From Desertimonas flava (GTDB lineage Bacteria > Actinomycetota > Acidimicrobiia > Acidimicrobiales > Ilumatobacteraceae), in contig NZ_QKYK01000010.1 of the NCBI RefSeq assembly GCF_003426815.1, positions 62,001 through 126,000 of the forward strand: 64,000 nucleotides of DNA. Direction: 5' to 3'. The notes below the pieces were generated by a model, which had not been told where the DNA came from, did not search any database, and was given only the letters and a program-made list of their open reading frames with translations. Shown in pieces: positions 1 through 52,355 of the stretch. The translations under genes were made by a program, and so were the position numbers. Within the stretch, counting starts at the first letter, position 1; each line of letters opens with the position of its first letter.

Positions 1-2223
1 GCCTTCATCGGGGTGCTCGGGGTCGATGCTGTCGAGGAGACGCCCGAGCCGGCGAACGAGTCGCTCGATCTCGGCGTGGGCCCGGCCCATCGTCGCCGTG
101 GCTCCCTCGATGCCGAGGATGCGCTCGACGATCGGGTAGAGCTCGCGACCTTCGCTCAGCTCGTGGGGCAGGAGCTGTTCGATCAGGATGCCCTGGACGC
201 GCCGGACCCGTGCCATCGCACCAGGGTCCGGACGCGCGCTCAGCGCGTCGGCGGTGGCTCGGAGGTCGTCGAGCCGCGGCCGCAACGCTGCGTGGTCAGC
301 GATGATGCGCCGGGCAAGGTCGGCGTCGGCGGGGCTCATCGCATCACGCCGGCGCGTCGAGAATCGCGCCCGCAGAGCGTTGAGGATCGCTGCGGCGTCG
401 ATGCCCTCCTGGGCGAGGGCTCCGACGACGGGGGGCAGCAGCCCGACCCCGGCGATTCCCATTGCCACCAGCGACAGACCGATGCCGACCAGCACGCTCT
501 GGCGGGCGATTCGCATCGTCCTCTGTGCGATGTGCATCGCATCGGCGACGCGGTCGAGGCGATCGGTCATCAACACGGCGTCGGCGGTCTCGGCGCTGGC
601 GACGCTGCCCGTGCCGCCGATGGCGACTCCGACGTCCGCCTCGGCCAACGCGGCGGCGTCGTTGACGCCATCGCCGATCATCAACGTCGGCCCGTGCGCC
701 CGTTCGTTGCGGACGATGTCCACCTTGTCGGCGGGGCTGCACTCGCCGCGGACGACATCGATGCCGAGGAGCACGGCGACCGATTCCGCCGTACTGGAGC
801 GGTCGCCGGAGACCATCACGGCGCGGGTGATGCCGTGCTGCCGCAGCGTCCGGATGGTGCGGCTGGCGTCGGGCCGGACGGGATCGTCGAGCAGCACGGC
901 CCCGGCCGGCTGTCCGTCGATCGCCACGAACACGGTGAGCGCCCCGTCGAGCTGGGCCCGCCGGCGGATCGCCGACGCCCAACCGGGCGCAGCGTTGGCG
1001 GCGGCCCAGGCCGCCTTCCCGACCGCCACGAAGTGATCGCCGACGCGACCGCGTGTCCCCGCCCCGGGCACCTCCTCGACCAGGTCTGGTTGCTGCAGCG
1101 ACAGGCCCCGGTCGCGAGCGGTGCGGACGAGCGCGGTGGCCAACACGTGAGACGACATCTGGTCGAGGGACGCGGCATACCGGAGCAGCTCGGACGCCGG
1201 CCACGGTCCGGTGGTGACGATGTCGACCACAGAGGGTCGTCCGAGGGTGAGCGTGCCCGTCTTGTCGAGGAGGAGAACCTTCGACCTGGCGAGCTGCTCG
1301 AGGACTGTGCCGCCCTTGACGATGACGCCACGCGATGCGGCACGAGAGATTCCCGACGTGATGGCGACCGGCGCGGCCAGTACGAGCGGGCAGGGCGTGG
1401 CGACCACGAGCACCGCGACGGCCCGGGTGGCGTCCCCGGACAGCACCCACGCGGCGATGGTCGCCACGGCCGCAGCGAGGAGGAACAGGCCGGCGTAGCG
1501 GTCGGCGAGGCGGACGAATGCGGCGTTCGCGGCATCGGCCTCCGCCGCCTCGGCGAGCCGGACGATCCCGGCATACGTGCTGTCGGCGGCCGTGGCCGTC
1601 GCCCGCATCCGGAACGGAGCCCCTGCGTTCGTCGCCCCGCTGCGCGCCGGGTCGCCGGTGGCGAGCTCGACGGGCACGTGCTCGCCGGTCAGGGCCGACT
1701 CGTCGATCACCGCGGCGGTGCTCTCGACACGCCCGTCGACGGGGATGACCTCACCGATCTGGACGACGAGCAGATCGCCAGGCACGACGTCGGCGAGCTC
1801 CCGGGAGATCAAGCCGGCGGCCTCGACGCGATGGACGTGTCGCGGGCTGCGGTCGCGGAGCGCTCGCAGCTCACGTCGCGCTCGCCGAGTGGCCCGGTCC
1901 TCGAGTGCGCGACCGGTGGCCAGCATCAGGCTGATCACGGCGCCGGCGAGGAACTCGCGGGTGAGGAACGTGCCGAGGAGCGCCGCCAGGGCGATCACGT
2001 CCACGCCGAGGCGGCGGCGTCGCACGCTCGACCAGATCCACCAGGCCGCAGGACCGACGCCGACGAGCGTGGTCGATGCCCACACCACGTCGGCGACCTG
2101 CCGGGCGCCGACGAGCCACGCCACGATCCCCGAAGCCGTCGCCGCTCCCGCAACGAGCAGCGCGCGCTCGGAGATCGAACGGGGAGCGCGGTGCCCGTCG
2201 GCCTCCGCGCTCGGCACGTTCAC
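1..2223 (-). CDS. Heavy-metal (P1B-type) P-type ATPase with C-terminal hemerythrin-like domain, 3' end outside window
   Basis: This is a membrane cation-transporting ATPase read from a GTG at 2223; the frame is still open at base 1, so the C-terminus is cut off. No N-terminal CxxC metal-binding domain is seen. The TGE loop (ALTGEH), a membrane TPCPL motif (Cys about 278), the phosphorylation motif DKTGTLT (Asp 320) and the hinge GDGVND (about bases 656-685) are all present. After the last membrane helices a helical tail holds His644, HxxxE at 687-691 and HxxxE at 716-720, the ligand pattern of hemerythrin/HHE domains. The fusion suggests oxygen- or iron-responsive transport. The substrate is not assignable from sequence. 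A DosR-like box lies upstream at 2354-2370. No strong ribosome binding site is seen before the GTG. Confidence 0.88.
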   Translation of the reverse strand, partial: MNVPSAEADGHRAPRSISERALLVAGAATASGIVAWLVGARQVADVVWASTTLVGVGPAAWWIWSSVRRRRLGVDVIALAALLGTFLTREFLAGAVISLMLATGRALEDRATRRARRELRALRDRSPRHVHRVEAAGLISRELADVVPGDLLVVQIGEVIPVDGRVESTAAVIDESALTGEHVPVELATGDPARSGATNAGAPFRMRATATAADSTYAGIVRLAEAAEADAANAAFVRLADRYAGLFLLAAAVATIAAWVLSGDATRAVAVLVVATPCPLVLAAPVAITSGISRAASRGVIVKGGTVLEQLARSKVLLLDKTGTLTLGRPSVVDIVTTGPWPASELLRYAASLDQMSSHVLATALVRTARDRGLSLQQPDLVEEVPGAGTRGRVGDHFVAVGKAAWAAANAAPGWASAIRRRAQLDGALTVFVAIDGQPAGAVLLDDPVRPDASRTIRTLRQHGITRAVMVSGDRSSTAESVAVLLGIDVVRGECSPADKVDIVRNERAHGPTLMIGDGVNDAAALAEADVGVAIGGTGSVASAETADAVLMTDRLDRVADAMHIAQRTMRIARQSVLVGIGLSLVAMGIAGVGLLPPVVGALAQEGIDAAAILNALRARFSTRRRDAMSPADADLARRIIADHAALRPRLDDLRATADALSARPDPGAMARVRRVQGILIEQLLPHELSEGRELYPIVERILGIEGATATMGRAHAEIERLVRRLGRLLDSIDPEHPDEG

Positions 2224-2353: not shown

Positions 2354-2370
2354 CAAGGGCCACAAGTCCC
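2354..2370 (-). promoter_or_regulatory. DosR-like box upstream of the ATPase-hemerythrin gene
   Basis: Read on the minus strand the site is GGGACTTGTGGCCCTTG, an imperfect palindrome close to the island consensus GGGACCTTCGGCCCTGG. It is about 130 bases upstream of the GTG at 2223. That implies either a long leader or a missed upstream start, although no start codon exists in frame between them. Confidence 0.55.
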
Positions 2371-2410: not shown

Positions 2411-2427
2411 GGGACCTTCGGCCCTGG
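2411..2427 (+). promoter_or_regulatory. DosR-like box upstream of the CoA-binding gene
   Basis: GGGACCTTCGGCCCTGG is the best example of the palindromic box repeated through the first 18 kb. It is about 65 bases upstream of the GTG at 2493. The spacing and orientation fit an activator site for the 2493-3532 gene pair. Confidence 0.65.
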
Positions 2428-2492: not shown

Positions 2493-2966
2493 GTGAAGAC
2501 CAAGGATGCGACCAAGGAGTTCCTGTCGAAGCGACGGATCGCGGTGACCGGGGTGTCCCGGACGCCGAAAGGCCACGGCAGCAACGTGGTCTACCAACGG
2601 CTCCGTAGCCGCGGCTTCGAGGTGTTCGCCATCAATCCGAACGCCGACCAGGTCGAGGGGGACCCGTGCTACCCCGACCTCGCATCGGTGCCCGGCGGCG
2701 TGGACGCCGTCGTGATCGCCACCAGTCCGGCACGGGCCGAAGCGACGATGCGAGAGTGCGTCGAGCTGGGCATCAGCCACGCCTGGATGCACCGCGGTCC
2801 GGGGCCGGGAAGCGTGTCGGACGCGGCGACGACCTACGGGCGCGATCACGGGATGACCGTCATCGACGGTGGGTGCCCGTGCATGTTCGATCCGACCGCT
2901 GATCTCGGTCACAAGGCGATGCGTGTGGTGTTCGGGTTGACCGGAAGGATCCCCAAGCAGGTGTGA
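2493..2966 (+). CDS. CoA-binding (YccU-type) protein
   Basis: A 157-residue protein of the CoA_binding_2 family, a single Rossmann domain related to the N-terminal CoA-ligase domain. The start (RRIAVTGVSRTPKGHGSNVVYQ), the middle segment DAVVIATSP and the Cys-containing loop GGCPCMF match that fold. The GTG start is set by a ribosome binding site (GAGAGGAG) about 8 bases upstream. It overlaps the next gene by 4 bases (GTGA), so the two are probably translationally coupled. The physiological role of this family is unclear. A good DosR-like box precedes it. Confidence 0.8.
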   Translation: MKTKDATKEFLSKRRIAVTGVSRTPKGHGSNVVYQRLRSRGFEVFAINPNADQVEGDPCYPDLASVPGGVDAVVIATSPARAEATMRECVELGISHAWMHRGPGPGSVSDAATTYGRDHGMTVIDGGCPCMFDPTADLGHKAMRVVFGLTGRIPKQV

Positions 2967-3532
2967 GCCGGCCGGCGCGAGGGCCCGACCCGATGGAGCA
3001 CGTCGTCATTCCGCTGGATCTCATGCACGCGCGGGCCGCCGGCGATCTCGCGGCCGGGCTCGTCGGCCCGTCCGGCCACCGCACGGCTGCGACGCCGTCC
3101 TGGCACATCACCGTGGCCTCGTTCGAGCCGGTGTCGCCGTCGGTCAGCCGGCAGGTGGTCGCCGCTGTCGCGGCGCGCACCGACCCGTTCGTCGTGCACG
3201 CCCACGGCTACGGCCTGTTCGTCGGCGCGCACGGGTCCAGCCTCATCATGTACGTCCCGGTGGTCCGCGGGCCGAGACTCGAAGCCCTCCGGGTCGACCT
3301 GCATCGATCGCTCGAGGACGCCGGTGTCCGCGTCGCGCACTGGCTCGATGCCGACCACTGGACGCCGCACATCACGCTGATCGACCGCGACATGGCCGAG
3401 ATCGACGTCGCGAGACTCGCCGCGTTCGTTCGCCAACGGCAACATCCGAGCTGGCACGTTCCCGTCGGCGAGCTCGCCGTCTCGACGGCACACGGCGAGT
3501 ACTCGGACCCGATCACGCTGGGCGTTCGCTGA
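2963..3532 (+). CDS. 2H phosphoesterase / 2'-5' RNA ligase family protein
   Basis: A 189-residue protein with the two HxT motifs of the 2H phosphoesterase (LigT/cyclic phosphodiesterase) superfamily: HITV near residue 49 and HITL near residue 137. Members act on 2',3'-cyclic phosphates or 2'-5' linked nucleotides; the substrate here is unknown. The GTG start overlaps the stop of the CoA-binding gene by 4 bases. An in-frame ATG lies 10 codons further on (2993) and could also be used. Confidence 0.75.
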   Translation: MSRPARGPDPMEHVVIPLDLMHARAAGDLAAGLVGPSGHRTAATPSWHITVASFEPVSPSVSRQVVAAVAARTDPFVVHAHGYGLFVGAHGSSLIMYVPVVRGPRLEALRVDLHRSLEDAGVRVAHWLDADHWTPHITLIDRDMAEIDVARLAAFVRQRQHPSWHVPVGELAVSTAHGEYSDPITLGVR

Positions 3533-3617
3533 CGCGTCGACGGGTGTCCGTCGTGGCGGCGAGCATCCCGCTCGACCGGCCGAGTGGGGTCGGCGGCCCT
3601 GGCCGCACAGCCGATTG

Positions 3618-3634
3618 GGGACATTGGGCCCTGG
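3618..3634 (+). promoter_or_regulatory. DosR-like box upstream of the GNAT-synthetase operon
   Basis: GGGACATTGGGCCCTGG lies 33 bases before the ATG at 3667. A weaker look-alike (GGGGTCGGCGGCCCTGG, about 3586-3602) sits just upstream. Tandem DosR sites are common in mycobacterial promoters. Confidence 0.65.
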
Positions 3635-3666
3635 ACGGGCGATGACGCGGCGACCAGGCTGGTCGC

Positions 3667-6510
3667 ATGCCGACGATCGATGCTGGCGGCCGCCCCGGTA
3701 GCTCCGCCACGGTGTTGGAGCGGTTCGATCGCGACGTGCTGCTGGCCACCGGGCGAGCAGTACGCATCCGCCCGTCGGGCGACACCGACGTGGCGGCGAT
3801 GCGGTCGTTCTACGAATCGCTCAGCGACCGGTCGACGTACTTCCGGTTCTTCGGCCTCCGCCCCGCCCTGCTCGACCCGTACATCGATCCGGCAGCGGCG
3901 CTCGACATCGAGCACCGGGTGGTGCTGCTCGCCTACGACGGGGACGAGCTCATCGGCATCGGCGAGTACATCCGGGTGCCGGGCCGCCCCGAGGCCGAGG
4001 TGGCCTTCGCCGTCGCCGACAGCCACCAACACGAGGGGGTGGCCACGGTTCTCCTCGAGGACCTCGCCCTGATCGCCCGGGCCGCCGGCCTCACGAAGCT
4101 GGTCGCCGAGACGCTCGCCACCAACGACGCGATGCTCGTCGTGTTCCGGTCGGTCGGCCTGGTCACACGCTCGTGGTACGACGCCGGGCAGATTCACGTC
4201 GAGCTCGACCTGACGGGCGAGTCGCTGCTCGAGGATCGCGCCGACGGGCGTGACTGGGTCGCCGCTGTGGCGTCCCTGCGGCCGATCCTCGAGGCGCGCC
4301 ACGTCGTCGTGATCGGCGCCGGTCGCGACCCCTCGTCGGTCGGGCGGCAGATCCTCGCCAATCTGCGGCAGACGTTCCACGGCCGCGTCAGCGTCGTCCA
4401 CCCGGTCGTTGACGACGTGGATGGGATCGCCACGGCGCGGCGGGTCGGCGATCTCGACGCGGTCCCCGACCTCGCGGTCGTGGCCGTCCCGGCGGCACAT
4501 GTGACCGACGTGGTCGAACAGTGCGGGCGGGCTGGGGTCAGAGCGGCCGTCGTCATCTCCGCCGGATTCGCCGAGGCCGGCGACGACGGCGTGGCCCGGG
4601 AACGCGACCTGATCCGCGCCGCGCGGCGGCACGGAATGCGCATCGTGGGTCCCAACTGCCTCGGAGTCGTGTCGACCGGCGTCGGTCTCGACGCCACGTT
4701 CATGCGGCATCCCCTGCGCGCGGGCTCCATCGCGATCGCGTCCCAGTCGGGTGGCGTCGGCATCGTCCTCGCCGATGAAGCGGCCCGCCGCGATCTCGGC
4801 GTGTCGACGTTCGTGTCGATGGGGAACAAGGCCGATGTCAGTGGCAACGACCTCCTGCGCTACTGGGTCGATGACCCGGCGACGAGGGTCGGCCTGATGT
4901 ACCTCGAGTCGATCGGCAACCCGCTCCGCTTCGCCCGAGTCGCCCGGGCCGCGTCCCGGCGTCTCCCGCTCGTCGCCCTCAAGAGCGGACGCTCCGAGGC
5001 GGGCCGACGTGGCGCCCGCTCGCACACGGCCGCTCTCGCCGCCGACGACGCTGGCATCGACGCGCTCTTCGCCCACACTGGCGTGATCCGCGCCCACTCG
5101 CTCGACCACCTCCTCGACATCGCCGCCCTGCTCGTCGATCAACCGGCTCCGTCGGGCCGGCGCGTCGCCCTCGTCGGCAACACAGGAGGACCGTTGATCC
5201 TCGCCGCCGACGCCGCTGCCGCCACCCACCTCGACGTGGTCGAGCTCTCCGGAGAGCTGCAGGACCGCCTGCGCGCCTTCGTCCCCGACGCCGCGGCGCT
5301 CGCCAACCCGATCGATCTGCTCGCCACGGCCACACCCGACCAGTACCGGACCGTGCTCGACACGATTGCCGACTCGGGGGAGGTCGACGCGTGCGCGGTC
5401 ATCCACGTCAACCTCGCCAGCCACGCCGCAGCGGCCCCGCTGCCCCTCGACTGGTCGGATCGACAGGTGACGGCCGCCGCCGTGCTGCTCGGTGGCGCGA
5501 CGGCCGTCGGGTCGATGCCCCGCTACCCGACGCCGGAACGGGCCATCGCCGCGCTCTCCTCCGCCGCCGATCGCGGTGCCTGGCTGGCGTCCGTGGCCTC
5601 CGAGCCATTCCACGCTGAGGACGTCGACCTGCTGGCGCTCCGGCACCGGGCCCGCAGCCTGGCCGAGCACAGCGAGCCGAACGGCTGGCTCGCCCCGAGT
5701 GACACGTTCGAACTGCTGAGTGCACTCGGCGTGCCGGTCGCATCCTGGGCGGTCGCCACCACCGCCGCCGACTGTGTCCGCCAGGCTCAGCGGCTCGGAT
5801 TCCCGTGCGTGCTCAAGGCGGTCGTTCCGGGGATCGTCCACAAGACCGAGGCCGGCGCGGTGATCTGCGGCATCGACAACGCGGCGGCGGCCCGCCGGGC
5901 CGTCCGCGAACTCCAGCAACGGTTCGGCAGCCAGCTGCACCACGTCCTCGTCCAACAGCAGGTCGGACCGGGGCCCGAGCTGCTCGTCGGTGGCGTCCGC
6001 GACCCGGCCATCGGGCCGCTCGTCGTCGTGGGTGCCGGCGGCACGGCGGCCGAGGTGTTGCGCGACCGCTCCGTGATGCTCGCCCCGGTCAGCGACCGGC
6101 AGGCGCGAGCGGGCGTCGAGCGACTCCGCATGTACCCGCTGCTCACCGGCTTCCGGGGTCGTCCGTCCATCCCCACCGAGCCGATCATCGACATCGTCGG
6201 GCGGGTCGGGCTGCTGATGGCCACCGTCCCGGAGATCGCCGAACTCGATCTCAACCCCGTCATCGGCGCCTCGAGCGGCACCGTCGTGGTCGACGCCCGC
6301 ATCGCCCTGAGCCCGGCACCGGTCGGACCGCTACGCGGCTTGCGCGTGTCCACCGGGCCAGGCAGCCGCAACGGGGACAACTCGTCGTCGACGACCGACC
6401 CTGCGGCGGAGACGCGCGCCCGACGGGACGTTCGACCCTTGTCAATCCGGACTGACGACGGGACGATGGGAGTGCGATCAGTCATCTCTGTGAACGAGGA
6501 GGCACCATGA
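3667..6510 (+). CDS. GNAT acetyltransferase fused to NDP-forming acyl-CoA synthetase (Pat-like)
   Basis: A 947-residue protein. Residues about 15-180 form a GNAT acetyltransferase (PSGDTDVAAMRSFYESLSDRS; acetyl-CoA loop around HQHEGVATVLL). The rest is the alpha plus beta arrangement of ADP-forming acetyl-CoA synthetases: CoA-binding VVIGAGRDPSSVGRQ, PNCLGV, an SHTAAL segment with His453, and a C-terminal ATP-grasp region (FPCVLKAVVPGIVHKTEAG). Proteins with these parts are protein lysine acetyltransferases (Pat/PatA) that acetylate acyl-CoA synthetases. This one has the GNAT first, as in Streptomyces-type enzymes. Whether His453 keeps synthetase activity alive cannot be told here. It overlaps the next gene by ATGA, at the head of a four-gene coupled operon. 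Confidence 0.85.
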   Translation: MPTIDAGGRPGSSATVLERFDRDVLLATGRAVRIRPSGDTDVAAMRSFYESLSDRSTYFRFFGLRPALLDPYIDPAAALDIEHRVVLLAYDGDELIGIGEYIRVPGRPEAEVAFAVADSHQHEGVATVLLEDLALIARAAGLTKLVAETLATNDAMLVVFRSVGLVTRSWYDAGQIHVELDLTGESLLEDRADGRDWVAAVASLRPILEARHVVVIGAGRDPSSVGRQILANLRQTFHGRVSVVHPVVDDVDGIATARRVGDLDAVPDLAVVAVPAAHVTDVVEQCGRAGVRAAVVISAGFAEAGDDGVARERDLIRAARRHGMRIVGPNCLGVVSTGVGLDATFMRHPLRAGSIAIASQSGGVGIVLADEAARRDLGVSTFVSMGNKADVSGNDLLRYWVDDPATRVGLMYLESIGNPLRFARVARAASRRLPLVALKSGRSEAGRRGARSHTAALAADDAGIDALFAHTGVIRAHSLDHLLDIAALLVDQPAPSGRRVALVGNTGGPLILAADAAAATHLDVVELSGELQDRLRAFVPDAAALANPIDLLATATPDQYRTVLDTIADSGEVDACAVIHVNLASHAAAAPLPLDWSDRQVTAAAVLLGGATAVGSMPRYPTPERAIAALSSAADRGAWLASVASEPFHAEDVDLLALRHRARSLAEHSEPNGWLAPSDTFELLSALGVPVASWAVATTAADCVRQAQRLGFPCVLKAVVPGIVHKTEAGAVICGIDNAAAARRAVRELQQRFGSQLHHVLVQQQVGPGPELLVGGVRDPAIGPLVVVGAGGTAAEVLRDRSVMLAPVSDRQARAGVERLRMYPLLTGFRGRPSIPTEPIIDIVGRVGLLMATVPEIAELDLNPVIGASSGTVVVDARIALSPAPVGPLRGLRVSTGPGSRNGDNSSSTTDPAAETRARRDVRPLSIRTDDGTMGVRSVISVNEEAP
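6425..6441 (+). promoter_or_regulatory. DosR-like box inside the end of the synthetase gene
   Basis: GGGACGTTCGACCCTTG lies within the last 30 codons of the preceding gene and about 65 bases before the DUF1918 ATG at 6507. It could give the last three genes of the operon an internal promoter. Confidence 0.45.
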
Positions 6511-6755
6511 AAGCGACCGTAGGCGATCGGCTCATCGTGAGCGGTCACCATGTCGGCGAACCCGACCGTGACGCCGAGATCCTCGAGGTCCACGGCCCGA
6601 ACGGCGCGCCGCCCTACCAGGTCCGCTGGTCCGACGACGGCCACGAGTCGTTGCTCTTCCCGGGGAGCGATGCCCGTATCGAACACTTCGATCACCACCG
6701 CGGTCGTGCCCGCACCGACTCTGGTCCGAGGCGGCCCGCCGCGCCCTCACCGTGA
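6507..6755 (+). CDS. DUF1918 small protein
   Basis: An 82-residue protein whose first 60 residues (MKATVGDRLIVSGHHVGEP, then VRWSDDGHESLLFPGSDARI) match the DUF1918 family, a small beta-barrel domain of unknown function. From memory, mycobacterial Rv0569, a DosR-regulon member, belongs to the same family. The start has a strong ribosome binding site (GAGGAGGC). The gene overlaps both neighbours by 4 bases, so it is translated as part of the synthetase-dehydrogenase-kinase operon. Confidence 0.8.
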   Translation: MKATVGDRLIVSGHHVGEPDRDAEILEVHGPNGAPPYQVRWSDDGHESLLFPGSDARIEHFDHHRGRARTDSGPRRPAAPSP

Positions 6756-7786
6756 CGGCGTGGGCCGTCGGCACGCCAGCCCCGGCGGCATCCGAGCCGC
6801 TGGTGGCTGTCGACCGCCCGAAACCGGAACCGGCGACCGGGCAGATCCGTGTCCGGGTGACGGCGTGCGGCGTGTGCCGCACGGATCTCCACCTCGCAGA
6901 AGGTGATCTCCCACCCCGCCGGCATCTCACCGTCCCGGGCCACGAGATCGTCGGCGTCGTCGACGCCCTTGGCGCCGGTGGCTCACGGTTCGAGCCGGGG
7001 CAGCGGGTCGGCATCGCCTGGCTGCGATCGACGTGCGGACGGTGCCGCTGGTGCCGGGCAGGCAGCGAGAACCTCTGTGAACGCCCGCGATTCACCGGCT
7101 GGGACGACGACGGCGGCTTCGCCGAGTGGGCGGTCGCCGACGAGGCGTACGCCTACGCGCTCCCCGACCGCTACGACGACGTGCACGCGGCACCCCTCCT
7201 GTGCGCCGGCATCATCGGATATCGCTCCCTACGCCGCACCGACCTGCCTCCGGGCGGACGGCTCGGCATCTACGGATTCGGAGCGTCCGCCCACCTGACC
7301 GCGCAGGTCGCCCTCGCGGCCGGCGCGACCGTGCACGTGATGACGCGGTCGGCCGATGCGCGAGAGCTCGCCCTCGAGCTCGGCGTCCACTCTGCGGGCC
7401 TGGCTGACGCGCCGCCACCCGAACCACTGGACGCGGCGATCGTCTTCGCGCCGGCCGGCGAGCTGGTCCCGGTGGCCCTGCGGGCCCTCGACCGCGGCGG
7501 CAAGGCGGTCCTCGCCGGCATCCACATGTCGCCGATCCCCCCGCTCGATCACCGACGTGAGCTCTTCGACGAGCGTGAGCTCCGCACGGTGACGGCCAAC
7601 ACTCGCCGCGACGGCGAGGAGTTCCTCGCCATCGCGGCGAATCTCGACCTCCACGTCGTCGCCCAGCCCTACCCGCTCGGCGCCGCCAACCAAGCATTGC
7701 GCGACCTGGCCGAGGACCGGATCCGCGGCGCCGCCGTGCTGATCATCGACGACGCGACATCGCCTCAGGGAGCGACGACCCGATGA
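6752..7786 (+). CDS. Zinc-dependent alcohol dehydrogenase (AdhA-like)
   Basis: A 344-residue medium-chain dehydrogenase. The catalytic zinc ligands are in GVCRTDLH (Cys near residue 33) and GHE. The structural zinc site is the four-cysteine run CGRCRWCRAGSENLC. The nucleotide-binding glycine motif is YGFGASAH. It should interconvert an alcohol and an aldehyde with NAD(P); the physiological substrate is unknown. The GTG start overlaps the DUF1918 stop and its stop overlaps the phosphofructokinase ATG, both by 4 bases. In this context it may regenerate NAD+ during oxygen limitation (inference). Confidence 0.88.
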   Translation: MTAWAVGTPAPAASEPLVAVDRPKPEPATGQIRVRVTACGVCRTDLHLAEGDLPPRRHLTVPGHEIVGVVDALGAGGSRFEPGQRVGIAWLRSTCGRCRWCRAGSENLCERPRFTGWDDDGGFAEWAVADEAYAYALPDRYDDVHAAPLLCAGIIGYRSLRRTDLPPGGRLGIYGFGASAHLTAQVALAAGATVHVMTRSADARELALELGVHSAGLADAPPPEPLDAAIVFAPAGELVPVALRALDRGGKAVLAGIHMSPIPPLDHRRELFDERELRTVTANTRRDGEEFLAIAANLDLHVVAQPYPLGAANQALRDLAEDRIRGAAVLIIDDATSPQGATTR

Positions 7787-9147
7787 CCGATCACCCCATC
7801 ACCCTGCCGGACCACGACGAGTTGCTCGTCGACACCGTGGACACCGCACGATGGCCGAATCCGTTGATCGAGCATGGCCTGGAGCCCGTCGAGGACGACC
7901 ACGGCTTGCTGTGCTCGTCGGACATCCGGTCGTTCGCCGCGTTCGTCGACCGTGGCGAGCTCCCACCCGCGTTCGAACCGGCGGGGCCCCGACGGCTGCT
8001 CGGGTTCGATCCACGCGCCGTCACGGCGGGAGTCGTCACGTGCGGCGGGTTGTGCCCCGGCACCAACGACGTCATCCGGTCCTTGACGTTGACGCTCCTC
8101 CACGGTTACGGCGTTCGCCGCGTCATCGGCTATCGGTACGGCTTCGCCGGCCTCGCCGACCCACTGCGCCTGCCACCGCTCGCCCTCACCGCCGCGGCCG
8201 TTCGGGACGTCCACCTGCACGGCGGCACCGTCCTCGGCTCGTCACGAGGCCCTCAGGACCCGGACGCGATGGTGCGAACCCTGGTGCACGACCGCGTCTC
8301 GATGCTGTTCTGCATCGGTGGGGACGGCAGCGTGCGCGGGGCATCGGCGATCGTCGCTGCCGTGCGGCGGCTCGGGCATCGCATCGCCGTCGTGAGCGTG
8401 CCCAAGACCATCGACAACGACCTGGACTGGGTGGATCGGAGCTTCGGCTTCGCCACGGCGGTCGACGCCGCGGCCAGAACGATCGGCGCGGCCCACGTCG
8501 AAGCACGCGGCGCGCTCGACGGGATCGGCCTCGTCAAGCTGATGGGCCGGCACTCCGGGTTCATCGCCGCCCACGCATCGTTGGCGAGGCCCGACGTCAA
8601 CCTGTGCCTCGTCCCCGAGGTGCCCTTCACCCTCGCCGGCGACGGCGGCGTCGTCGACGTGGTCGCCCGCCGGTTGGCGCGTCGCCGCCACGCCGTGATC
8701 GTCGTCGCCGAAGGCGCCGGCCAGGACCTGCTGGCGCCGCCCGCGGCGACCGATGCGTCCGGCAACACCAAGCTGGCCGACGTCGGCACCTGGCTGCGGG
8801 ATCACCTGAGATCCGATCTCGGCGAGCTCGGTGTCCACGCCGACATCAAGTACCTCGACCCCAGCTACGAGATCCGCTCGCTCCCGGCCAACGCCACCGA
8901 CGCCGCCTTTTGCCTGTCGCTGGGACAGATGGCTGCCCACGCCGCGATGGCAGGCAAGACCGACGTCGTCGTCGGGTATCACCAGGGCCGCTTCACGCAC
9001 CTCCCCAACGATCTGGTCACGCGGCGACGGCGGCAGGTGCAACCGACGGGCGATCTGTGGCAGCGAGTGCTGCAGTCGACGGGACAGCCACTCGCGCTGA
9101 TCGGCGACCCCGCTCGGCACCCGGAGACGACGGCCGCGGCCACCTGA
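7783..9147 (+). CDS. 6-phosphofructokinase, PfkA superfamily
   Basis: A 454-residue phosphofructokinase of the long clade related to plant and PPi-type enzymes. Key motifs are TCGGLCPGTN (nucleotide loop), IGGDGSVRGA, PKTIDND (the aspartates bind fructose 6-phosphate) and MGRHSGFIA. The Gly after GGD together with Lys in PKTIDND is the combination of ATP-using members of this clade. PPi enzymes usually carry GGDD, so ATP is the likelier phosphoryl donor. It phosphorylates fructose 6-phosphate in glycolysis. It is last in a four-gene run in which each gene overlaps the next by 4 bases. Confidence 0.88.
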   Translation: MTDHPITLPDHDELLVDTVDTARWPNPLIEHGLEPVEDDHGLLCSSDIRSFAAFVDRGELPPAFEPAGPRRLLGFDPRAVTAGVVTCGGLCPGTNDVIRSLTLTLLHGYGVRRVIGYRYGFAGLADPLRLPPLALTAAAVRDVHLHGGTVLGSSRGPQDPDAMVRTLVHDRVSMLFCIGGDGSVRGASAIVAAVRRLGHRIAVVSVPKTIDNDLDWVDRSFGFATAVDAAARTIGAAHVEARGALDGIGLVKLMGRHSGFIAAHASLARPDVNLCLVPEVPFTLAGDGGVVDVVARRLARRRHAVIVVAEGAGQDLLAPPAATDASGNTKLADVGTWLRDHLRSDLGELGVHADIKYLDPSYEIRSLPANATDAAFCLSLGQMAAHAAMAGKTDVVVGYHQGRFTHLPNDLVTRRRRQVQPTGDLWQRVLQSTGQPLALIGDPARHPETTAAAT

Positions 9148-17580: not shown

Positions 17581-17636
17581 GACTTCCACGGCGCCGGGAC
17601 GGCGGGGTGGGCTGCTCCCGAAGGTGGTCCGCGCTC

Positions 17637-17653
17637 GGGCCGTTCGCCCCTGG
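17637..17653 (+). promoter_or_regulatory. DosR-like box upstream of the P2-type ATPase
   Basis: GGGCCGTTCGCCCCTGG lies 14 bases before the ATG at 17667 and 35 before the ATG at 17688. The usual spacing favours the later start. Confidence 0.45.
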
Positions 17654-17666
17654 TGCGTGCCGACGT

Positions 17667-20273
17667 ATGCCATCGACGATGGAGGCGATGCAGGACTCCG
17701 TCGGTGCCAGCCCATTGGGTCTCACCTCGACGGAGGCACGCGCCCGCCTCGACCGCGCGGGGCCGAATCAGTTGCCGCCTCCTCGGCGTCGCTCGGCCTG
17801 GCGTCGCTTCGCGGATCAGCTGCTGCACTTCTTCGCGGTGATGCTGTGGGCTGCGGGCGGGCTGGCGTTCGTGGCCGGGCTCCCGCAACTCGGGGTCGCG
17901 ATCTTCGGGGTCGTGATCTTGAACGCGGTGTTCGCCTTCGTGCAGGAAAGTCGGGCCGACAAGGCGGCGGAGCGGCTTCGCGCCCTGCTGCCCCAACGAG
18001 TGACGGTCCGCCGCGACGGTCGCCCGGTACAGGTCGACGCCCAGGAAGTCGTCGTCGACGATGTGGTCTTGCTGGAGTCGGGGGATCGGATCGCGGCCGA
18101 CGCGAGCGTCGTCGTCGCCCACGGCTTGCTGGTGGATACGTCGCTGCTGACGGGTGAGAGCGAGCCGACCGCCATGGAGGGCGGGGATCTGTTTGCCGGG
18201 AGCTTCGTGGTGGAGGGCGAGGCCGAGGCGGTCGTCACGGCCACCGGGGAGTCGACTCGGCTGGCCGACATCGCCCGGCTCACCGTGCTGACCGAGCGGC
18301 CGCCGAGCCCGTTGGCGCGGGAGCTGCACTCCGTCGTGCGCACGGTCGCAGCCATCGCGGTGTGTGTGGGTGTCGCGTTCTTCGCGCTCACGGTGGCGCT
18401 TGGCAACCCGGCATCGGACGGTTTCGTGTTTGCCGTGGGGGTGACGGTGGCGCTCGTCCCCGAGGCACTGCTACCGACCGTCACCTTGTCGCTGGCCTGG
18501 GGTGCCGAGCAGATGGCCAAGCACCAGGTCCTGGTGCGCGAACTGGAGGCCGTTGAGACGCTCGGGTCGACCACGTTCATCTGCACCGACAAGACAGGCA
18601 CGCTGACCCGCAACCAGATGACGGTGGTCGAAGCGTGGACGCCGGACGGCATGGCGTTGATCGGTACCCCCGGCTACGAGCCGGTCGCGACGGCCGTGCT
18701 CTCCAGCCCCGACGCCCGGGCCGCTCTGGAGCGTCTTGCGCTCGCCTCCGCTCGTTGCTCGGTGGGCTACGTCCACGAGGTCGACGGCGAGTGGCGAGCT
18801 CACGGCGACCCGATGGAGGCGGCCCTCGACGCGTTCGCCCGCCGCATGGGTATCGACACTGGCACCGACCGCGTCGAGCACCGCGCCGAAGCCCGCTTCC
18901 CGTTCGACCCACGGCGTCGGCGCATGTCGATCGTTGTCGACGGGGAGGTGCTCGCGAAGGGCGCACCCGACGCGGTGCTCCCACTGTGCGTGCAGGATGC
19001 CGGCGCGAGCGATGTGCTTGCCGCGCTGACCCAGAAGGGCCTGCGAGTCCTTGCGGTCGCCGGCCGACCCACGGGTGGACGGCTGCCGGCCTCCGCGGAA
19101 GAGGCCGAGGTCGGTCTTCGCCTCTATGGGCTCGTTGCCATGGAGGACCCGCCCCGTCCCGATGTCGCGAGCGCCATCGACACGTGCCGCCGGGCCGGGA
19201 TCAAGGTGGCCATGGTCACCGGCGACCATCCCGCCACGGCCGCGGCAATCGCCTCGGAAGTCGGGTTGCACGTCGAGGGGGCGCCGGTGCTGTGTGGCAA
19301 CGATCTCCCTGCGGACGGCCAGGTGCTGGGGGCCGTGCTGGACCGCGACGGGATCGTGGTGGCCAGGGTCTCCCCGGAGGACAAGCTGCGCATCGCCAAG
19401 GCACTGCGGGCGCGCGGGCACGTGGTGGCGATGACCGGTGACGGCGTCAATGATGGCCCAGCCCTGCACGAAGCCGACATCGGCATCGCGATGGGTGCCT
19501 CCGGAACGGACGTCGCGCGGGAGGCAGCCGATCTGGTGCTGCTCGACGACCACTTCGCCACCATCGTCGCCGGCGTCGAGCAGGGACGTGCCACGTTCGT
19601 GAACATCCGCCGGTTCCTCACCTACCACCTCACCGACAACGTGGCCGAGCTCACCCCGTTCATCGTCTGGGCGATCTCGGGTGGCCGCTTCCCACTAGCG
19701 TTGGGTGTCCTTCAGATCCTCGCCCTCGACCTCGGGACGGACACCCTCTCCGCCGTCGCTCTTGGCGCCGAGCCACCAGCGCGGCATCTGCTCGAAGGCC
19801 CACCGGTCTCAGGCCGGCTCCTGAACTACACCGTCGCCCGGCGAGCGTTCGGTGTGCTCGGCCCCACGGTGGCGGTGATGACCATGGCCTCGTTCCTTCT
19901 GTGCCTCGTCGTCGCCGGCTGGCGGCCCGGCGAGACGTTCCCTGAGGGGCCCGCTCTGGCTGCCGCGTCCGGCGCGGCGTTCATGACGGTTGTCATCGCC
20001 CAGACCGCCAACGCCTTCGCGTGCCGGAGCTCCAGCCAGTGGCCTGGCGCGCTGGGTTGGACGACGAACCGGTTGCTGATCCCAGCCGCCAGCGTCGAGC
20101 TCGTCTTCTCGCTCCTCGTCATCCTCGCCGGTCCGATCGCGAGCGAGCTCGGCCACGCCAGCCCCCCGCTGGTTGGCTGGCTCGTGGCCGTCGCCGCTGC
20201 CGCCGTGCTGCTCGCCGTGGACGCCATCGACAAGATCCACCGGCGAGCTCGAGCCAGGCCGCGTCACCTCTAG
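17667..20273 (+). CDS. P2-type cation ATPase (CtpF-like)
   Basis: An 868-residue P-type ATPase of the Ca2+/Na+-type branch. Motifs are the N-terminal cation-ATPase domain, LLTGESEP, membrane motif VALVPEALLP (PEALL in place of the SERCA-type PEGLP), DKTGTLT (Asp308), MVTGDHPATA and GDGVNDGPALHEADIGIAMG, followed by six C-terminal membrane helices. It likely exports or exchanges divalent or alkali cations. Mycobacterial CtpF, a DosR-regulon pump, is the closest analogue I know. In-frame ATGs at 17667 and 17688 are both possible; the latter fits the DosR-like box and a GGAGG better. Confidence 0.9.
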   Translation: MPSTMEAMQDSVGASPLGLTSTEARARLDRAGPNQLPPPRRRSAWRRFADQLLHFFAVMLWAAGGLAFVAGLPQLGVAIFGVVILNAVFAFVQESRADKAAERLRALLPQRVTVRRDGRPVQVDAQEVVVDDVVLLESGDRIAADASVVVAHGLLVDTSLLTGESEPTAMEGGDLFAGSFVVEGEAEAVVTATGESTRLADIARLTVLTERPPSPLARELHSVVRTVAAIAVCVGVAFFALTVALGNPASDGFVFAVGVTVALVPEALLPTVTLSLAWGAEQMAKHQVLVRELEAVETLGSTTFICTDKTGTLTRNQMTVVEAWTPDGMALIGTPGYEPVATAVLSSPDARAALERLALASARCSVGYVHEVDGEWRAHGDPMEAALDAFARRMGIDTGTDRVEHRAEARFPFDPRRRRMSIVVDGEVLAKGAPDAVLPLCVQDAGASDVLAALTQKGLRVLAVAGRPTGGRLPASAEEAEVGLRLYGLVAMEDPPRPDVASAIDTCRRAGIKVAMVTGDHPATAAAIASEVGLHVEGAPVLCGNDLPADGQVLGAVLDRDGIVVARVSPEDKLRIAKALRARGHVVAMTGDGVNDGPALHEADIGIAMGASGTDVAREAADLVLLDDHFATIVAGVEQGRATFVNIRRFLTYHLTDNVAELTPFIVWAISGGRFPLALGVLQILALDLGTDTLSAVALGAEPPARHLLEGPPVSGRLLNYTVARRAFGVLGPTVAVMTMASFLLCLVVAGWRPGETFPEGPALAAASGAAFMTVVIAQTANAFACRSSSQWPGALGWTTNRLLIPAASVELVFSLLVILAGPIASELGHASPPLVGWLVAVAAAAVLLAVDAIDKIHRRARARPRHL

Positions 20274-48490: not shown

Positions 48491-48772
48491 TCAGGCGCGC
48501 ATGAGGCGGGCGATGGCGGCGGTGGCCTCGTCGAGCTTCTCGCGGGCCTCGTCACCACCCTCCTGCACGGCATCGGCGACGCAGTGGCCGATGTGGTCGT
48601 GCACCAGGCCGAGCGACACCTGCTGCAACGCCTTGGTGACCGCCAGCACCTGATCGAGGATGTCGATGCAGTAGCGATCGTCCTCCACCATCTTGGCGAT
48701 GCCGCGCACCTGGCCCTCGACTCGGGCCAGGCGTTTGGCGATGTCGTCTTTGTGCATCGTGTAACCAGGCAT
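48491..48772 (-). CDS. csoR: CsoR-family copper-sensing repressor
   Basis: A 93-residue all-helical repressor with the copper ligands Cys35, His60 and Cys64 (contexts DDRYCIDIL and VHDHIGHC), the C-H-C set of Mycobacterium CsoR. It is last in the copper operon, 3 bases after copA, and likely binds the GG-rich palindromes at 52341 and 52372. Confidence 0.92.
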   Translation of the reverse strand: MPGYTMHKDDIAKRLARVEGQVRGIAKMVEDDRYCIDILDQVLAVTKALQQVSLGLVHDHIGHCVADAVQEGGDEAREKLDEATAAIARLMRA

Positions 48773-48775
48773 CGG

Positions 48776-51166
48776 TCACCCCTTCTTGACGGTAGCTACA
48801 GGAGATCCTCCACGATCCGACCACGTCGAGTCGAAGCGTCGCAGACGGAGGCTGTTGGTCACGACGAAGACGCTCGAGAACGCCATCGCGGCGCCGGCGA
48901 GCATCGGATTGAGCAGCCCGGCGGCGGCGATCGGGATCGCCGCCACGTTGTAGGCGAACGCCCAGAACAGGTTGCCCTTGATGACGGCCAGCGTGTGCCG
49001 CGATAGGCGGATGGCGTCGGCCGCCGACCGCAGGTCGCCGCGGACCAGCGTGAGATCGCTCGCCTCGATCGCCACGTCGGTGCCGGTGCCCATCGCCAGG
49101 CCGAGATCCGCCTGGGCCAGCGCGGCGGCATCGTTGACACCGTCGCCGACCATCGCCACGACCTTGCCCTCCGACTGCAGGCGCTGGACGACCGCCACCT
49201 TGTCGGCGGGCAACACGTCGGCCACGACGTCGTCTGCGTCGATGCCCACCTGGGCGGCGACGGCGCGGGCCGCCCGCTCGTTGTCGCCGGTGAGCAGCAC
49301 CGGCCGCAAGCCGAGCTCGCGGAAGGCGCTGATGGCCTCGGCGGAGGTGTCCTTCACGGTGTCGGCGACGACGAGCATGCCGCGCACCTCGCCGTCCCAG
49401 CCGGCGAACACCGGCGTGCGGCCGGCGGAGCGGGCCTCGTCGGCCGCGAGCTTCAGCGAGCCGCCGGTGGAAGCCGTCAGCACATCGCCGAGGTGCAGCG
49501 CCGAGTCGGCGAGGAACGTCTCGCGCCCCACGGAGACGGCGTGACCCTCGACGAGACCTTCGACGCCGAGCCCGTCGCGGGACGAGAACGACTCGACCGG
49601 GGCGAGAGTCAACCCTCGCTCCCCCACTCCGGCGGCGATCGCCTGGGCGATCGGGTGCTCGGAAGCGTGTTCGACGGAACCGGCCAGGCGCAGCAGTTCG
49701 TCGGCGTCGACACCGTCGACCGGCACGACGTCCACCAACGCCATCTTCCCGGAGGTCACCGTGCCGGTCTTGTCGAGCACGATCGTGTCGATCCTCCGGG
49801 TCGACTCGAGCACCTCCGGGCCCTTGATCAGGATCCCGAGCTGTGCCCCGCGGCCGGTGCCGACCATGAGCGCCGTCGGCGTGGCGAGCCCGAGGGCGCA
49901 CGGGCAGGCGATGATGAGCACGGCGACGGCGGCGGTGAATGCCGTGGTCGCCGATCCGGTGGACGCCGCGGTGAGCCAGAAGCCCAGCGTGGCGACGGCC
50001 AGGACGATCACGGCCGGGACGAAGAACGCCGAGATCCGATCCGCGAGCCGTTGGACCTGGGCCTTGCCCGTCTGGGCGTCCTCGACCAGGCGGGCGATCT
50101 GGGCCAGCGCCGTGTCGGCGCCGACCCGCGTGGCGCGGACCACGAGGCGTCCGCCGGCGTTGACGGAGGCGCCGACGACGGGGTCGTCGGGACCGACCTC
50201 CACAGGGACCGGCTCGCCCGTCAGCAGCGACGTGTCGACGGCGGACGTGCCGTCGACCACCACACCGTCGGTCGCCACCTTCTCGCCCGGACGCACGACG
50301 AAGAGATCCCCGACGGCGAGCTGGTCGATCGGGATGCGCGTCTCCGAGCCGTCACGGACGACGGCGACGTCCTTGGCGCCCAGCTCGAGCAGCGCCTGGA
50401 GCGCGGCACCGGAGCGTCGCTTGGCCCGCTGCTCGGCGTACCGGCCGGCGAGGATGAACACGATGACGCCGGCGGCGACCTCGAGGTAGATCTGGCTCGA
50501 TCCCATGCCCCGCTCGGGCCGGAACGAGAACCCATGACGCATCGACGGGTCGCCGGCGTCGCCGATGAACAGCGCGTACAGCGACCAGCCGAACGCGGCG
50601 AGCGTGCCGACCGAGATCAGGGTGTCCATGGTGGCCGTGCCGTGACGCACGTTGGCCCACGTCGCCTTGTGGAACGGCCAGCCGCCCCACACCACGACCG
50701 GCGCGGCGAGGGTGAGCGACAGCCACTGCCACGAGTCGAACTGCAGCGCGGGGATCATCGCCAGGGCGACGACGGGGACCGCCAGGACGAACGAGATGAG
50801 CAGCCGGCGGCGCAGGACGTCGATCGGCTCCTCGGCGTGATGGCCGTCGTGGGCCCCTGCGTGGTCACCGTCGAGGCCCGAGGCGTCGGGGTGACGACTC
50901 CCGGGCGGCTCGTGGACGCTGGCCGAGTAGCCGGCCGCTTCCACCTGCTTCACCAGGTCGTCGGTCGACACCTCGGCGTCGGCGGCCACGGAGACCTTGG
51001 CCTTCTCGGTGGCGTAGTTGACCGTGGCGCTGACGCCGTCCAGCTTGTTCAGGCGCTTCTCGATGCGCGCCGCGCACGAGGCGCACGTCATGCCGACGAT
51101 GTCGAGGCTGACATCGGTCGCGGCGGCTTCGGCGGCCTGCGGGTGGGCGTGGGTGTCAGTGGTCAT
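48776..51166 (-). CDS. copA: Copper-exporting P1B-type ATPase
   Basis: A 796-residue pump with one N-terminal HMA domain ([16 protein letters not shown]). A His-rich stretch ([22 protein letters not shown]) precedes the first helix. The membrane motif is [17 protein letters not shown] and [20 protein letters not shown] follow. It exports Cu(I) from the cytoplasm. The ATG overlaps the upstream gene by 11 bases. Confidence 0.95.
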
Positions 51167-52103
51167 CGTGGACCTGTCCCGTGGTCGCCGTCCCGTCGGA
51201 CGGAGCGGTGCCTCCGTTGCCGACGTCCACGGTGAAGGCGGCGGTGTGGACCTCGCCGTCGACCGAGAAGTCGAGGAACAGCCGGTAGGTGCCGGCGGTT
51301 GGGAACGCCGCGGCGAAGCCGATCGACGGTGCTTCGACGTCGTCGAGCGGATGCACGTGGAGGTAGCCGAGATCGCCGGCGCGCAGCACGACGAGGTGGC
51401 CGGCGGCCCCGAGGTACGGATCGGTGACGACGTCGTCGCCGTCACGGCTGACCTCGAACGTGAGCGTCGACTCGCCGGCAGAGATCGCCTCGGCACCTGA
51501 CAGGGCGACGTCGAAGCCGTCGACCGTTGTGGTCGATGCGACGGCGGGTAGCTCGGACACGGCCGTGTCCCCGGCGACGGCGAGGTCGGTGGCCAACGTC
51601 AGCGCGTCGGCGCCGGTCGCGCGGAAGTCGGCGTACACCCGGTACGAGCCGGCCGGGAGCTCCGGCAGATCGATCGACCAGGTGCCGTCCGCGGCCAGAT
51701 CGGGGTGAACGTGGTGGAACTCGACGAGATCTCGGGAGGCCACGATGAGATGCAGCCGGCGCTCGTGGACGACGTCGAACTCCGTGACCGCCTCACCATC
51801 GGGACCTTCGATGGTGAAGGCGTACTCCGTCGGGTGCTCGGCGTGCTCGGCGTCGATCGTGTCGACGGCCGGGACCAGGCGGTACCCGGCGGCGGCGACG
51901 CTGAGACCCGACAATCCGGGCCCGGCGTCACCGACCGATGGCGTCACCGGCGATCCGGCGGGGGCCTCGTCGTCGTGCTCGACGTGGCCGTCGTCGTCGC
52001 GACTGGTGTCGATGGGACCGACCGCGGCGCCGACGGCGGCGGCCGCGCCGAAGGCGATCGCCGTTCCGGCGGCGAAGGCGGCGAGCTTGGTGAGCGGTCT
52101 CAC
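51156..52103 (-). CDS. Exported His-rich copper-operon protein
   Basis: A 315-residue protein with an N-terminal signal/anchor ([25 protein letters not shown]). A His/Asp-rich stretch is followed by two similar beta domains, each carrying a His motif: [19 protein letters not shown] near residue 140 and [20 protein letters not shown] near residue 240. Not a characterised family to my knowledge. Position between copZ and copA with overlapping ends suggests an extracytoplasmic copper-binding or copper-handing role (inference). Confidence 0.75.
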
Positions 52104-52306
52104 TTCACCAACTCGTAACCCGCCTCGTCGACGGCCGCCGCGACGGCGGCCCGATCGACTGGCGATTCGGACTCGACGGTGACGGTGCCCGCGGCGAGGT
52201 CGACATCGACCTTGCTCACACCGGCCACCTTGGCGACCTCCTCGGACACGGCGTTGACGCAGTGCTGGCAGGTCATCCCGGTGACGGTGAACGATTCGAC
52301 GGTCAT
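52100..52306 (-). CDS. copZ: Copper chaperone, HMA domain
   Basis: A 68-residue single HMA domain with the metal motif GMTCQHC (Cys13, Cys16). It carries Cu(I) to CopA. The ATG at 52306 is chosen over the upstream in-frame ATGs because AAGGAGA lies 8 bases before it. First gene of the operon. Confidence 0.92.
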   Translation of the reverse strand: MTVESFTVTGMTCQHCVNAVSEEVAKVAGVSKVDVDLAAGTVTVESESPVDRAAVAAAVDEAGYELVK

Positions 52307-52340
52307 GGCGGTGGTCTCCTTCGAGCGATCGGACATCAGA

Positions 52341-52355
52341 TACCCCATGGGGGTA
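52341..52355. promoter_or_regulatory. CsoR-like palindrome 1
   Basis: TACCCCATGGGGGTA, a G/C-tract palindrome of the CsoR operator type, 35 bases before the copZ ATG. Confidence 0.8.

Follow-up and report, generated by a model that had tools for sequence, protein, structure and literature searches.

The closest described relatives of the metal pump considered here are the P1B-5 ATPases of Acidothermus cellulolyticus and Sinorhizobium meliloti, which carry a hemerythrin-like domain at the C-terminus. The A. cellulolyticus protein (UniProt A0LQU2) has, like the protein analysed here, a P1B core that includes the actuator and ATP domains, and its C-terminal domain contains HxxxE and HxE motifs (Traverso et al. 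2010, in PMC9388753). In the same review the P1B-5 domains are written as H-HxxxE-HxE-HxxxxD, the tails of both organisms are treated as diiron domains with measured autoxidation, the S. meliloti protein is described as having an unusually stable oxy form, and the question whether the domain senses O2 or iron is left open (PMC9388753). Nia, the S. meliloti pump, is reported to be induced by Fe and by Ni and to have Ni2+ and Fe2+ as its substrates; when nia was deleted in strain CCNWSX0020, no phenotype was seen for Ni, Cu, Zn, Cd or Pb (PMC4932525). Regulators of this type control the DosR/DevR regulon of M. tuberculosis and the OsdR regulon of S. coelicolor, and the OsdR/DevR site AGGGCCGATCGGCCCT has been tested by gel shift in Streptomyces (PMC5069765). 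In the literature searched, which included few subscription papers, we have found neither a report of a P1B-5 ATPase within a DosR/DevR or OsdR regulon nor a paper joining DosR/DevR control with a P1B-5 pump.

In the current analysis we have identified such a pump at the left edge of a window of 64,000 nucleotides from Desertimonas flava (C2:62001-126000, where C2 denotes the contig; the genome of 6.2 Mb is in 73 contigs). The features are collected in Table 1.

Table 1. Features of the pump gene and of the adjoining island (positions in the window; residues numbered from GTG 2442; fractions refer to the alignment of 42 sequences)
Feature	Position	Strand	Basis or conservation
Gene for a P1B-5 type metal-transporting ATPase that ends in a hemerythrin domain	1..2223	-	frame and Pfam/NCBIfam
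Hemerythrin/HHE domain; in-window part comprising helices A-C, with helix D (H833, E837, E839) past the edge	1..330	-	PF01814
Putative ligands H789 and E791 (HxE), helix C	70..78	-	42/42; 41/42
Putative ligands H760 and E764 (HxxxE), helix B	151..165	-	42/42; 37/42 Glu, 5 Asp
Putative ligand H717 (H644 in the preliminary description), helix A	292..294	-	42/42
QEGID motif of the last transmembrane segment, aa 678-682	397..411	-	Q, E, D each 42/42
TPCP transmembrane metal-site motif, aa 349-352	1387..1398	-	41/42
DosR/DevR/OsdR-type box GGGACTTGTGGCCCT of the ATPase gene, 133-147 bp before GTG 2223	2356..2370	-	exact match
Another box, GGGACCTTCGGCCCT, 68 bp before the divergent gene (2493-2966 +) for the CoA-binding protein	2411..2425	+	
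Island genes: CoA-binding protein, 2'-5' RNA ligase-like, GNAT/ADP-forming acyl-CoA synthetase, small protein, zinc-type alcohol dehydrogenase (not HMM-scanned), phosphofructokinase	2493..9147	+	

Extent of the gene
The minus-strand frame is open from position 2442 over the left edge of the window and meets no stop until C2:61848 (L011:9848), with about 152 bp of the gene lying past the edge. The C-terminus was read from the same contig (C2:52001-65500, referred to as L011), and this leftward extension, proposed in the preliminary description, supplied the complete C-terminus with a fourth helix and the last ligands. The frame has 864 codons from GTG 2442 and 791 from GTG 2223. The start at GTG 2442 was considered and rejected, because a DosR-type box would then fall within the coding sequence and the homologues begin near codon 74-90; with the box placed between the two GTGs, GTG 2223 (or 2217) is probably the start, giving a protein of 791 aa. 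No in-frame ATG, GTG or TTG occurs between codons 76 and 107, and no convincing ribosome site was seen on inspection of the sequence at either GTG 2223 or GTG 2442. Residue numbers are counted here from GTG 2442, and those of the preliminary description are 73 lower and were therefore counted from GTG 2223.

The ATPase core
The pump matches the heavy-metal P1B ATPase family TIGR01525 over its full length (E 3e-148, 495 bits against a cut-off of 346) as well as the Cd-family TIGR01512 (E 1e-135). The motifs TGE (252), TPCP (349), DKTGT (393) and GDGVND (590) are all intact, and no N-terminal metal-binding domain is reported by Pfam. The last transmembrane segment is QEGIDAAAILNALR, in which Q678, E679 and D682 are invariant in the 42 sequences aligned. 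The motifs TPCP and QExxD are known to mark the P1B-5 class. Based on these motifs and on 45% identity over 743 aa to the hemerythrin-tailed pump encoded on a S. meliloti plasmid (L110), the protein is assigned by sequence to this known class.

The nucleotide-binding domain of P1B ATPases usually has an HP dipeptide at the SEHP locus. The pump has SSHV there (window 1138-1155, minus strand, aa 430-435). Among the 41 sequences readable at this locus, the pump included, HV is present in 37 and HP in 4, and the S. meliloti gene also has HV. Judged from the alignment, HV is a trait common to the subgroup, and in view of the full-length family match it is not taken to exclude P1B membership. Three other P1B-like pumps encoded in the same genome retain SEHP or SDHP.

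The hemerythrin-like tail
PF01814 (Hemerythrin) is matched by the whole protein with E 2.6e-8 and 34.8 bits, and by the in-window tail alone, which is without helix D, with E 3.9e-10 and 40.7 bits, the cut-off being 25.3 in both cases. The hemerythrin-like character that had been read from the spacing of histidines and glutamates is thus recovered by the HMM. The ligands were compared in an alignment of 42 sequences, made up of the window protein, the public locus L012 and 40 loci of relatives; a scan of contigs had given one homologous locus only, and the search of genomes far more. Just past the window edge, H833 is conserved in 41, E837 in all and E839 in 41 of the 42 sequences. The tail motif is H-HxxxE-HxE-HxxxE, and the residue that follows E837 (838) is Glu or Asp. 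Among sequences that are only about 40-57% identical, conservation reaches at least 97% at six of the seven proposed ligand positions, the exception being E764, which is Glu or Asp.

The preliminary description had proposed H644, H687/E691 and H716/E720 as ligands. The first four correspond to H717, H760/E764 and H789, all of which are conserved, while E720 does not stand: it corresponds to E793, which is Glu in only 8 of the 42 sequences, and the conserved partner is E791, in an HxE rather than an HxxxE motif. Position 793 is occupied by Ser, Glu, Ala or Gln and never by His. The five-His pattern of O2-binding hemerythrins, H-HxxxE-HxxxH-HxxxxD, accordingly fails in the tail, whose third motif is HxE and which is without the fifth His. 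The tail has, by alignment, the ligand pattern of P1B-5 domains and not the five-His set of O2-carrying hemerythrins, and for this reason oxygen sensing is not established. The HxE motif agrees with the pattern given in the review, which differs in the last motif, HxxxxD against the HxxxE of the present alignment. The same difference holds for A. cellulolyticus, compared by description only, where HxxxxD is given and the HxxxE with E837 is invariant here. By conservation, the last ligand is more probably the glutamate of HxxxE (E837) than residue 838 alone.

The complete tail of the homologue L012, modelled from an alignment of two sequences, is predicted as a four-helix bundle with a mean pLDDT of 80. 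The helices span residues 43-69, 74-110, 114-141 and 145-179 of the model and each of them carries, by sequence position, one ligand set; the predicted bundle agrees with the fold anticipated for the tail. Structural matches to the model in the PDB include 3cax (VIA-align Z 12.5) and 2p0n (Z 12.1), which we take to be hemerythrin-like structures, and unrelated helical bundles score equally. Foldseek gave no match to the tail model in the PDB below E 0.3, the list being made up mostly of simple four-helix bundles, and a PDB sequence search with the tail returned nothing credible (best E 0.22, a designed enzyme). The fold search of the model adds little, simple helical bundles reaching high Z by chance. 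A model of the full-length pump was unusable (pLDDT 44, pTM 0.29) and nothing is said on the docking of the tail.

It is therefore seen from the family matches, PF01814 and the conserved ligands that the pump comprises an intact P1B-type ATPase and a hemerythrin-like tail, as had been described. Judged by sequence this type of protein is already known and is not itself new.

DosR-type boxes and the probable dormancy island
The genome contains 23 exact matches to GGGACNNNNGGCCCT, of which 7 lie in the 21 kb of C2:58403-79580 (binomial p 1e-12), a clustering of about 90-fold; a control with the reversed pattern gave 11 matches genome-wide. The other boxes of the island are found close to genes for universal-stress proteins (Usp) and P2-type ATPases, ahead of the acyl-CoA synthetase gene and within a cluster of Hsp20, PNPOx and P2-ATPase genes. 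The acyl-CoA synthetase is fused to a GNAT acetyltransferase (3667-6510, plus strand) and its box is at 3618-3632. The gene content is that of a dormancy island, with Usp, Hsp20, CBS, PNPOx and P2-type ATPases, and it is shared with the DosR/DevR regulon of M. tuberculosis and the OsdR regulon of S. coelicolor (PMC5069765). The boxes match the site AGGGCCGATCGGCCCT of those regulons, with one half-site variant, GGGAC.

A P2-type cation ATPase is encoded on either side of the island, one at window -3408..-748 (L011:6592-9252, plus strand) and the other at 17607-20273 (plus strand), each near a DosR-type box. They are presumably comparable to CtpF of the M. tuberculosis DosR regulon. Elsewhere in the window the minus strand encodes a probable copper set (48491-52348): the product of 48491-48772 is small and CsoR-like, that of 48776-51496 is a P1B ATPase containing a CPC motif, and that of 52100-52348 is a small metal-binding protein with GMTCQHC.

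Two DosR/DosS-like gene pairs have been identified, one at C1:432-434 kb and one at C45:65-67 kb, and each pair has boxes at distances of up to about 40 kb. The genes of the DosR-like regulators are C1:433186-433812 and C45:64852-65463, and their products are 56-59% identical to a Rhodococcus regulator. The regions C1:393451-433812 and C45:64852-72004 are further DosR/DosS-like loci with boxes and Usp genes. The sequence suggests that the genome holds three dormancy islands.

The DosR-like hypoxia island of the preliminary description is thus upheld by the clustering of the boxes and by the gene content. From its sequence the island has the appearance of a switch into dormancy at low oxygen; this supports, and does not prove, the proposed link between oxygen, iron and metal export. 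With a box upstream of its gene, the pump is a predicted member of a DosR/DevR regulon.

Distribution and surroundings in other organisms
Counting matches that span the pump helices plus the tail, the hemerythrin-tailed pump is encoded in the D. flava genome itself, in 13 of about 198 relatives and, in a sample of 396 genomes of the phylum, in about 34 (about 9%). Many plasmids also encode it, including those of Sinorhizobium, Cupriavidus, Methylobacterium, Citrobacter, Rhodococcus and Streptomyces, among others, and plasmids of Alpha-, Beta- and Gammaproteobacteria are thus represented. The statement in the preliminary description that one P1B subgroup bears hemerythrin domains was right, the subgroup being P1B-5, and only the word "small" does not fit its frequency in the phylum and its presence on proteobacterial plasmids. 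In a maximum-likelihood tree the window protein falls in a well-supported group of 21, comprising members of the same order and others of the phylum. The gene set of the whole island is weakly shared with relatives by tblastn; the pump recurs and the exact island does not.

Exact boxes, in either half-site form, are found upstream of the pump in L069, L071, L079 and L096, that is in 4 of the 40 other loci against 0.41 expected (p 7e-4), and one-mismatch boxes in 13 of the 40 against 5.2 (p 1e-3). Since the exact box is absent upstream of the pump in the remaining 36, DosR-type control is not general. The plasmid loci L109-L113 have no exact DosR-type box, and one-mismatch sites occur only in L110 and L111 among them. 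DosR-like regulators adjoin the pump in L083 and L107.

Around the pumps, 656 kb of DNA contain 11 Usp genes where the genome-wide density predicts about 1.6 domains, an enrichment whose p-value is only indicative as such genes cluster. Pump islands of a hypoxia type, with Usp, include those of S. meliloti (with a P2-like ATPase and ADH), Streptomyces (four Usp, CBS and PPDK) and M. nodulans (acyl-CoA ligase, phosphoketolase and a cation ATPase), and the Rhodococcus pump island, likewise of a hypoxia type, has a response regulator, a GAF kinase and a cation ATPase. Settings of an iron type are also found, with ferritin and VIT in Mycolicibacterium, VIT in Citrobacter, and NRAMP and a metal-dependent regulator in Cellulomonas. 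A P1B-5-like pump without the tail is encoded in R. leguminosarum (L124, CP090121.1), in an island of Usp, P-type ATPase and PNPOx genes, and the island link therefore does not depend on the tail.

The S. meliloti gene L110 is, from its sequence, very probably nia (SMa1163). It shares with the present pump TPCP, QExxD and the same hemerythrin ligand columns, and both have genes for Usp, P2-type ATPases and alcohol dehydrogenases in their neighbourhood. Unlike the present pump, L110 has no exact DosR-type box nearby, and the controller proposed for it differs.

Proposed function and alternative explanations
We consider it fairly probable that the gene encodes a P1B-5 pump for efflux of Fe2+/Ni2+ that is induced by hypoxia and has its transport gated by a diiron tail. 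The identity of the metal, the occupancy of the diiron site, the gating and the hypoxic induction are what we infer. A DosR/DevR-type response regulator would switch the gene on as oxygen falls, within the dormancy island, and the product would use ATP to export a divalent transition metal across the membrane, most likely Fe2+ and possibly Ni2+, by a route whose site is formed from TPCP and QExxD in the transmembrane helices. The cytoplasmic C-terminal bundle would hold a diiron centre through H717, H760, E764, H789, E791, H833 and E837. The tail is most likely an internal gate, whose iron and oxidation state would report cytosolic Fe2+ and O2 and tune the pump, and ferrous iron built up under hypoxia would be exported ahead of the return of O2. 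The tail-less P1B-5 pumps (L124), the null phenotype of nia and the 36 of 40 loci without an exact box are counted against this explanation.

A less likely explanation, though one of some weight, is that the tail has no O2 role and is only a cytosolic donor, buffer or sensor of iron, which hands Fe2+ to the pump or reports the iron load, the position in the island reflecting the release of iron in dormancy. The lack of the fifth His of O2-carrying hemerythrins from the tail motif, the O2-versus-iron question left open in the review (PMC9388753) and the ferritin, VIT, NRAMP and metal-dependent regulator neighbours in several organisms agree with it, whereas the unusually stable oxy form reported for S. 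meliloti indicates that the site can bind O2 (PMC9388753), and the gene repeatedly has DosR-type boxes and Usp islands as neighbours. That the bundle is vestigial or structural and binds no metal is very improbable: helical bundles are a common fold and some P1B-5 ATPases have no tail (L124), but the conservation of six of the seven ligands at this level of identity, the PF01814 score above cut-off and the diiron sites with measured autoxidation reviewed for A. cellulolyticus and S. meliloti (PMC9388753) argue against it.

The boxes themselves could be chance palindromes of G+C-rich DNA, with the gene under metal control only. This is consistent with the exact upstream box in only 4 of the 40 other loci and with a genome-wide count only about twice that of the reversed control, but it accounts poorly for the clustering in the island, for the boxes beside DosR-like genes and for the excess upstream of orthologues, and we regard it as rather unlikely.

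Implications
It is the regulatory setting of the pump, and not the protein, that goes beyond the literature searched. We tentatively suggest, as a possibility we would not yet favour, that bacterial hypoxia or dormancy programmes have, as a recurrent effector, hemerythrin-tailed P1B-5 pumps that are induced at low O2 and then gated through their own diiron sensor of O2 or iron, under DosR-type control in actinobacteria and other controllers in rhizobia. If true, oxygen would control the export of iron at two levels. The DosR-type box and the recurrent placement in hypoxia islands provide an independent handle on the question of O2 versus iron sensing raised in the review (PMC9388753). If the pump is a member of the hypoxia regulon, export of Fe2+ or Ni2+ on oxygen downshift would be a plausible role for it.
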